Assembly (NCBI GenBank): GCA_020851035.1
Contig: JADZDM010000020.1
Span: forward strand, 62,001 to 126,000
Reading direction: 5' to 3'
DNA: 64,000 bases
DNA from: Gemmatimonadaceae bacterium
Lineage (GTDB): Bacteria > Gemmatimonadota > Gemmatimonadetes > Gemmatimonadales > Gemmatimonadaceae
Shown here in pieces: positions 43,001 to 45,506 of the stretch. The translations under genes and the position numbers were made by a program. Under the pieces are notes generated by a model that saw nothing but the letters and a program-made list of their open reading frames with translations, was not told the origin of the DNA and did not search any database. The number at the start of each line of letters is the position of its first letter. Position 1 is the stretch's first letter.

Positions 43001-44068
43001 TCAAGACGGTTCGAGTGCCACGGCAGCCGGCTTCCGCGCACTGACCAGCCTCCGGAGCACCGGGCCGAGCGGCTCCTCCACCAGTCGATGGATCGCAACG
43101 GCCGTGGTGACGGCGAACACGACGATCACCGCGAGTGCGATCGATGGTGCGACCCCGCGCTCCACCATCGCCTGGTACAGCACGAAGCCGGCGTTCTGGT
43201 GGATCAGGTACAGGGGATAGGTCAGCTCACCGGGGATGGTCGCCCAGCGTGTCTTCCCGATCGTGATCCGCCCCGTCCCCACCAGCAGGAACACACCGAC
43301 CAGCACGACGACGATCGCACCATGCACGACCGGGTCCGGTGCGAAGCCGTTCCAGTCGTCTCCCATGCGACGCGCCTTCGCCACCGAGTGCCAGGCGCCG
43401 AGCGGCACCGCGGCCATCAGCAGCCCCACGCGCGCCGCGGTCCAGCCGCGCGAATGCGCGAGGAAGGTCACCGCGCCGATGGTGAAGAGCGGGGCGTAGT
43501 TCGCCACCAGCCAGCGTTCCACCGGGTACATCGGACGGATGGCATCGGCCAGCGACACCAGCAACCAGCCTGCCAGCAGCCATTCGCTGCGCTCCAGCAG
43601 CTTCGTGCGGATCGCGAGCCAGACCATCAGGTAGAACTGGAGCTCCACCGCCAGCGACCAGTACGCACCGTCGACGTATTCCGCGCCGACATACTGCGGG
43701 ATCAGCGTCAGGTTCCAGAGCCAGTCGACCCACGTCACCGCGAATCGCGGATCCCCACGCCACGTCGTCAGCAGCCACGTGATGGTGGCAGCCACCCAGA
43801 GCGCAGGATAGAGCCGTGCGACCCGTGAGGCCACGAACGCACGCGGGGTGCGCCCGATCGCCGACATGAAGATCACGTACCCGCTCACCATGAAGAACAG
43901 GTCCACACCGAGGAACCCGTAGCGCGCGACGGGCTCCAGGCTCCGCAGCGGCACGTCCGTGATCCAGTCCGACCGCGGCCCGCGCGACAGGTAGTGGAAG
44001 ACCAGCACCGAGAATGCCGCGATGCCACGGAGCAGGTCGATGCCGTAGGTGCGCTGCGGTGGGTTCAT
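43001..44068 (-). CDS. Acyltransferase-3 (OafA-like) membrane O-acyltransferase
   Basis: A 355-residue inner-membrane protein with about ten helices. The family start motif GIDLLRGIAAFSVLVFHY contains the active-site His, and FFMVSGYVIF, SRVARLYPALW and WSLAVELQFYL follow in the usual order. Such enzymes add acetyl or similar groups to surface glycans; lying at the edge of the polysaccharide region, O-acetylation of the glycan is likely. It converges on the MutY-like gene with a 6-bp gap. No extra SGNH domain. Confidence 0.88.
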   Translation of the reverse strand: MNPPQRTYGIDLLRGIAAFSVLVFHYLSRGPRSDWITDVPLRSLEPVARYGFLGVDLFFMVSGYVIFMSAIGRTPRAFVASRVARLYPALWVAATITWLLTTWRGDPRFAVTWVDWLWNLTLIPQYVGAEYVDGAYWSLAVELQFYLMVWLAIRTKLLERSEWLLAGWLLVSLADAIRPMYPVERWLVANYAPLFTIGAVTFLAHSRGWTAARVGLLMAAVPLGAWHSVAKARRMGDDWNGFAPDPVVHGAIVVVLVGVFLLVGTGRITIGKTRWATIPGELTYPLYLIHQNAGFVLYQAMVERGVAPSIALAVIVVFAVTTAVAIHRLVEEPLGPVLRRLVSARKPAAVALEPS

Positions 44069-44160: not shown

Positions 44161-44352
44161 CTGGCCCATGAATCCTAGTGGATTGGAAATGAAGTTGGGA
44201 TAGCATGAAGGGTGTCGTGGCACCCCACCCGCCAAGGCGGAAACCGCAGCAATACCAGCGGTATTGCGAGGATTTCCAACGTCGGCGGGTGGGGTGTCAC
44301 GGCGACCGACTGCACCCCGAACTTCGTTTCCAGTCCACCAGGGGCTGGCCCA
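44161..44352. repeat. Three-tier palindromic element with flanking 8-bp direct repeats
   Basis: This fills most of the 319-bp gap between the acyltransferase (minus strand) and the rmlB stop. Three inverted pairs share one centre (44258): outer 44174-44196 with 44320-44342 (20 of 23), middle 44217-44233 with 44284-44300 (16 of 17), inner 44249-44256 with 44260-44267 (8 of 8, AGC loop), plus a 5-bp GGAAA/TTTCC pair. Three of the four mismatches are G-U pairs in RNA. CTGGCCCA stands directly at both edges (44161-44168 and 44345-44352) like a target duplication. No protein is encoded. A mobile (MITE-like) or structured RNA element is inferred. Confidence 0.8.
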
Positions 44353-44387: not shown

Positions 44388-45506
44388 TCAGCTCTGTACG
44401 ATCCCCATGTCCACCCACGCCCGGTAGCTGCCGTCCATCACCCGGCGCCACCAGGGCTCGTTGGCGAGGAACCATGCCACCGTCTCGCGGATGCCCTCCT
44501 CGAAGGTGCAGGATGGCACGAATCCCAGTTCCGACGCGATCTTGCGCGCGTCGATGGCGTAGCGGCGGTCGTGGCCGGGCCGGTCGGCCACGAACGTGAC
44601 CAGGCTCGACGAGGGCACACCGGACGCCGCAGGGCAGGAGGAGAACCGCCCCCGCAGCGCCGCATCGGCCGCCATCCGTTCGTCCACCAGCGCGCAGACC
44701 AGCCGCACGATGTCGATGTTCGCCCACTCGTTGTGTCCCCCGACGTTGTACACCTCGCCGACGCGCCCGCCATCCAGCACCGCCCGGATCGCGCGCGCAT
44801 GGTCGAGCACGTACAGCCAGTCGCGGACGTTCCGGCCGTCACCGTACACCGGCAGCGGGCGGCCATCGAGGATGTTCACGATCACCAGCGGGATCAGCTT
44901 CTCGGGAAAGTGGTACGGCCCGTAGTTGTTCGAGCAGTTGGTGGTGGTGACGGGCAGCCCGTAGGTGTGGTGGTACGCCCGCACGAGGTGGTCAGACGCG
45001 GCCTTGCTCGCCGAATAGGGCGAGTTGGGTGCGTATGGGGTCGCCTCGTGGAACGGGGGATCGTCGGGGCCCAGCGACCCGTACACCTCGTCGGTCGAGA
45101 CGTGATGGAACCGCACGTCGCCGGTGACGGCGCGCTCCTGCAGCCAGACGGCGCGCGCCGCCTTCAGCAGCTCGTGCGTGCCGGTCACGTTCGTCGCGAT
45201 GAACGCGTCCGGCCCCGCGATGGAGCGGTCGACGTGCGACTCCGCGGCGAAGTGCACCACCGTGTCGAGCTGGTGCTCGCGCAGCAGGCCGGCGGCGAGG
45301 CCGGCCGTGCCGATGTCGCCGTGCACGAACACCAGGCGCGGGTCGGCACGCAGGTCGTCCAGGCTCGCGAGGTTGCCGGCGTACGTCAGCGCATCGAGCA
45401 CCACCACCGTGCCGTCGCGTGTGGCCGACAGCCAGTGACGCACGAAGTTCGAGCCGATGAAGCCGGCGCCGCCGGTGACCAGCAGCCTACGCGTGGGAGA
45501 GCTCAT
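44388..45506 (-). CDS. rfbB: dTDP-glucose 4,6-dehydratase RmlB
   Basis: Second enzyme of dTDP-L-rhamnose synthesis; converts dTDP-glucose to the 4-keto-6-deoxy sugar with bound NAD. The 372-residue SDR protein has [15 protein letters not shown] (near 10-24), DALTYAGNL, the catalytic HVSTDEVYG and YSASKAASD, and [18 protein letters not shown] 45506 lies 20 bp inside the rmlD end, so both are coupled. Gene order on the transcript is rmlA-rmlC-rmlD-rmlB. Confidence 0.95.

Follow-up and report, generated by a model that had tools for sequence, protein, structure and literature searches.

The long palindrome beside an rmlB-like gene in the window, the 64,000-nucleotide stretch of a Gemmatimonadaceae contig analysed here, is probably one copy of a MITE-like element that is non-autonomous, measures about 162 bp without the CTAG duplicated on its insertion, and is moved in trans by a transposase. 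Copies of the element are dispersed and of fixed length, sister loci are free of it, insertion takes place at a single CTAG, and pairing is preserved by compensatory changes between subfamilies. We conclude that the element is a new MITE-like family of a familiar sort, which adds a mobile repeat, documented by empty sites, to a bacterial group almost free of it outside one genus.

The palindrome is long and imperfect, occupies positions 44175-44341 (plus strand) and is centred at 44258. It lies in a gene-free interval bounded by two minus-strand genes, an acyltransferase gene that starts at 44068 and the rmlB-like gene, whose stop is at 44388; a scan of the contigs for homologues of the latter returned distant ones only. 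An earlier note on this DNA had placed a palindrome with this centre here, with no gene inside, and its position, fold and gene context bear this out. As RNA, the window copy forms one long hairpin of -136.4 kcal/mol, a value reached by none of 200 dinucleotide shuffles (mean -84.5, sd 4.7; z = -11). In the 55-pair consensus structure it contributes 50 Watson-Crick and five G-U pairs, so that every non-Watson-Crick cell is G-U, in agreement with the remark in the same note that most mismatches are of this kind. Alignment with 20 other full-length copies from the same genome and four from two congeners identifies it as a subfamily I copy of 167 bp, counting the CTAG at one terminus and a decayed CCAG at the other. 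The left terminal CTAG (44175-44178) is probably the duplicated target sequence, as intact copies have CTAG at both ends and empty sites have one, and the right terminal CCAG (44338-44341) aligns with the CTAG of intact copies. The copy alignment also delimits the left terminal inverted repeat CTAGTGGATTGGAAATGAAGTTGGG (44175-44199, plus strand), the right terminal inverted repeat (44317-44341, minus strand) and a central hairpin region (44241-44283, plus strand), which is the part most alike between subfamilies.

Searching the genome and its relatives, as the earlier note had proposed, gave, with the window copy as BLAST query, 29 matches in its own genome (G000, an assembly of 34 contigs), dispersed and with unrelated flanks; after alignment these reduce to 21 full-length copies and about ten partial ones. 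Copies are 166-167 bp long, and no gene called by a simple codon-usage caller written for this analysis lies inside any of them. Unmutated copies measure exactly 166 bp and read CTAGTGGCGTGTAATCGAAGTTC...GAACTTCGATTACACGCCACTAG, and a second subfamily, which includes the window copy, has the ends CTAGTGGATTGGAAATGAAGTT. The outer ~25 bp are conserved in inverted orientation and constitute terminal inverted repeats. In the genome these ends (TGGCGTGTAATCGAAGTTC) occur only in pairs spaced by 166-167 bp, in one pair spaced by 39 bp, or singly and in decayed form. Among congeneric genomes, G089 has one copy and G090 has copies at about twelve places, and a covariance model search found one copy in another genus (G088). 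Elsewhere in the family, of which 177 genomes were searched, no copy was detected at E <= 0.001, nor in the plasmid collection searched, nor, with the central motif, in the viral contigs searched. Some derivatives depart from the standard form. A chimeric copy (L152:1539-1704) has a left arm of subfamily II and a right arm of subfamily I, and pairs poorly (36/55 Watson-Crick). A 39-bp miniature with both ends and almost no middle (L172:4001-4039) coincides exactly with the stop codon of a gene of 2655 bp, and the element's central part recurs as degenerate copies in tandem near a full copy (L150:6570-6745).

Intact copies have CTAG at both termini, and their ends read CTAGTGG on both sides. 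For several loci, the two flanks were joined and used to search the two congeners, and the matching regions were aligned. The two genes at L164 are shared by both congeners, which have one CTAG in place of the CTAG-element-CTAG of the genome studied here, and at L157 and L150 the syntenic sites in G090 are empty, again with a single CTAG each. These three loci establish both mobility and the CTAG target. The empty sites fit a 4-bp duplication, a 2-bp duplication, or no duplication at all (with the element carrying its own CTAG) alike. For the window copy itself, the flank matches in G090 lie on one contig but kilobases apart, and there is therefore no clean empty site. In addition, insertions are nested, since the copies in L154 and L163 each abut an older copy, reduced in size, at its terminal CTAG or CTCG. 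The MITE or non-autonomous element proposed in the earlier note is thus upheld by dispersed copies, by empty sites in two related genomes and by nested insertions. The target duplication suggested with it is not. The 8-mer CTGGCCCA does occur as a direct repeat on either side of the window copy (44161-44168 and 44345-44352, both plus strand), but 6 bp and 3 bp from the ends of the element rather than exactly outside them. As these repeats are offset, and are found at the window copy only, they are not target duplications: other copies share no flanking 8-mer (longest common word <= 7 nt), and the duplicated sequence is probably CTAG or its TA instead.

The choice of target bears on where copies are found. 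In 275 kb of the genome around copies, a sample that includes the window and is enriched for element-carrying loci, CTAG was observed 54 times against 734 expected, and is thus ~14-30 fold rare. Element ends make up 29 of these 54 sites; the other 25 comprise 16 stop codons and nine intergenic sites, with none intragenic. Such strong avoidance of CTAG hints at CTAG-specific repair, restriction or some other pressure in this genome. In 12 of 27 element loci, a flanking gene has its stop codon within the terminal CTAG. Since CTAG is rare and was never intragenic in this sample, stop codons and intergenic DNA are the only places where an element specific to CTAG can insert, and about half of the copies consequently sit exactly on TAG stop codons. 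The share does not differ from that of the other CTAG sites (12/27 versus 16/25, p = 0.18). Moreover, CTAG is its own reverse complement, so that two convergent genes can share one CTAG as their stop, and its duplication would restore both. At L155 a convergent pair runs into the element from either side, each gene ending at one terminus, and orthologues indicate that both proteins keep their natural ends. Flanking proteins likewise keep their natural ends at the loci checked.

Folding and covariation analysis among copies, also proposed in the earlier note, indicates that the pairing has been conserved between subfamilies. The two subfamily consensuses differ by 12 compensatory double changes, five single changes that keep the pair and six broken pairs. 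Covariation across the 25-copy alignment was 0.250 versus 0.127 in shuffles, and was reached by none of 500 shuffles; kinship of the sequences can itself beat shuffles, but the value drops below 0.06 when the partner is slid by 1-3 columns. Mismatches in the consensuses comprise eight distinct G-U and one A-C, a small sample, whereas variants private to single copies favour neither (20 G-U versus 24 A-C, counted as distinct variants). Given this bias in the consensuses and its lack among private mutations, the simplest reading is that the fold seems to be selected while the element multiplies and not in copies that have landed. The central 43 columns hold three fixed subfamily differences but 19 private variants (p = 0.08), and this conserved centre fits selection during spread, although it is only suggestive. 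RNAalifold gives the alignment -63 on one strand and -43 on the reverse strand, and this difference, together with the G-U excess, suggests that the selected form is the single-stranded form of one strand. More generally, conserved pairing among subfamilies, set against unbiased decay of single copies, provides a test of whether a hairpin is selected for moving or for service to the host.

The most plausible account is of an element mobile in trans. The inverted ends would be recognised by a transposase, which may also read the conserved central hairpin, and the element would be cut out and inserted at CTAG, with CTAG or its TA duplicated. The palindrome would be under selection solely in the lineage of moving copies, and a landed copy would be neutral and subsequently decay. 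As coding sequence is almost free of CTAG except in the form of C+TAG stops, landing exactly on a stop codon would be frequent, and the duplicated, palindromic CTAG would restore the stop of one flanking gene, or both stops of a convergent pair, rendering insertion harmless. A simple account is thereby offered of repeats that appear to 'provide' stops, namely a palindromic target which is rare save at TAG stops and is duplicated on insertion.

Other explanations of the palindrome have been considered. The earlier note raised a structured RNA or a bidirectional terminator, kept by selection at gene 3' ends. The hairpin is indeed very stable, its stem shows compensatory changes, and copies are frequent at 3' ends and between convergent genes. 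However, the location at gene ends follows from the distribution of CTAG, orthologous loci lack the element, and an Rfam search found no family at the gathering score, only sub-threshold matches to miRNA hairpins. The suggestion of a structured RNA is therefore sustained as far as pairing between subfamilies is concerned, but resident copies mutate without bias towards RNA pairs, and this apparent lack of selection on the fold once landed argues against a maintained role as RNA or terminator. As to termination in particular, there is no positive support: no terminator-like site was found, the stem lacks a T-run after it, and there is no sign that any individual site maintains its pairing. We regard this explanation as very improbable. 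An unrelated chance palindrome or local duplication has practically nothing to recommend it, being refuted already by the 29 dispersed genome matches with their unrelated flanks, by the empty sites and by the fold z-score.

The mover was sought among a few transposase families in three incomplete genomes, and no autonomous partner with matching ends was found in them. DDE_3 (PF13358), the sole domain model tried for IS630/Tc1-mariner, was absent from G000, G089 and G090, and an IS630-type transposase was rejected as the mover on these grounds. A single IS5-family insertion sequence (L206:1300-2487), with ends GGGAAGCTCTG and flanked by TTAG and CTAG, was dismissed as the parent because its ends differ from those of the element. 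A larger element with the same ends was likewise discounted: as every end belongs to a short-spaced pair or is a decayed single, no longer partner is visible. Genes beside four truncated copies, inspected by eye, included no recognisable transposase. Three RAYT-type tyrosine transposase genes are present (L173:1129-1866, L174:1468-2172 and L175:1198-1860), each inside its own repeat array (GTTCAAGGGGACGGAGATCTTGAAC; GGACTCTGTCCCC; CCGGTGACAGTGCACTC), and these arrays resemble the TIR-flanked RAYTs described in PMC3733652. With repeats of their own and no element copy nearby, they are not an obvious parent.

Nevertheless, these genes raise the alternative of a REPIN-like route, by which a single-stranded hairpin would be moved by an HUH (Y1/RAYT-type) tyrosine transposase, with CTAG serving as a cleavage or target tetranucleotide and no true duplication. 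Consistent with this route, RAYT-type genes were not detected in the two congeners, whose copies are fewer or more decayed, and the structure is much better on one strand, both in the RNAalifold energies and in the consensus G-U and A-C counts. TAG stops supplied by REP ends have been described (PMC3733652), as have compensatory changes in REPIN stems (PMC3116915). In addition, the element's first 12 nt, CTAGTGGCGTGT, recur unchanged at the end of one RAYT gene, and at L173:1120-1140 the RAYT stop codon lies inside GCCACTAGTGGCGTGT, which is identical to both ends of the 166-bp element back to back. The 12-nt match may, however, be left over from an ordinary stop-codon insertion. Against the route, every RAYT has a different repeat array of its own, none has a full element copy beside it, and the element has no GTAG tag, its ends being symmetric and CTAG. 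On balance, a REPIN-like origin appears unlikely. The related proposal, that selection acts on the full-length fold of one strand while the element is mobilised, with an ssDNA or RNA intermediate and non-DDE insertion at CTAG, possibly through a resident RAYT, is doubtful also, if marginally less so; were it true, the one-strand intermediate would make this a REPIN-like system with a CTAG instead of a GTAG signature. Our preferred candidate for the mover of the MITE-like element is a trans-acting DDE transposase, in line with other MITEs.

The element can be compared with several known systems. According to Tenzen and Ohtsubo (1991), as cited in PMC2170065, IS630 prefers the TA within CTAG and duplicates TA; the CTAG target is thus held in common, but an IS630-type (DDE_3) transposase was not found in this genome or the two congeners. 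With REPINs and GTAG REPs it shares an inverted-repeat hairpin, compensatory stem changes, the giving of TAG stops and a location at gene 3' ends (PMC3116915, PMC3733652). It differs from them in having CTAG at both ends in place of a GTAG (or CGTC) tag, in the lack of an element copy at any RAYT gene, and in the conservation of its centre and not of its ends alone. ERIC, RUP and Correia elements are short, end in TA, have terminal inverted repeats and give rise to transcripts that fold into long stem-loops (PMC2229807). The element resembles ERIC, RUP and Correia/NEMIS in being below 200 bp, gene-free and mainly intergenic, with terminal inverted repeats, a long stem-loop and a mover that is mostly unknown (PMC2229807), and the TA found at their ends lies here inside CTAG. 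In contrast to ERIC, RUP and Correia, it is GC-rich, has a strict CTAG target and not TA, often overlaps stop codons exactly, and is unrelated in sequence as far as searched. A further likeness is to YPAL / RU-2 of Yersinia, which are ~168 bp, palindromic, not A+T-rich and known from empty and filled sites (PMC2229807); YPAL lacks TA at its ends and has duplications that vary from 3 to 26 bp, whereas in the element described here the putatively duplicated sequence is always CTAG.
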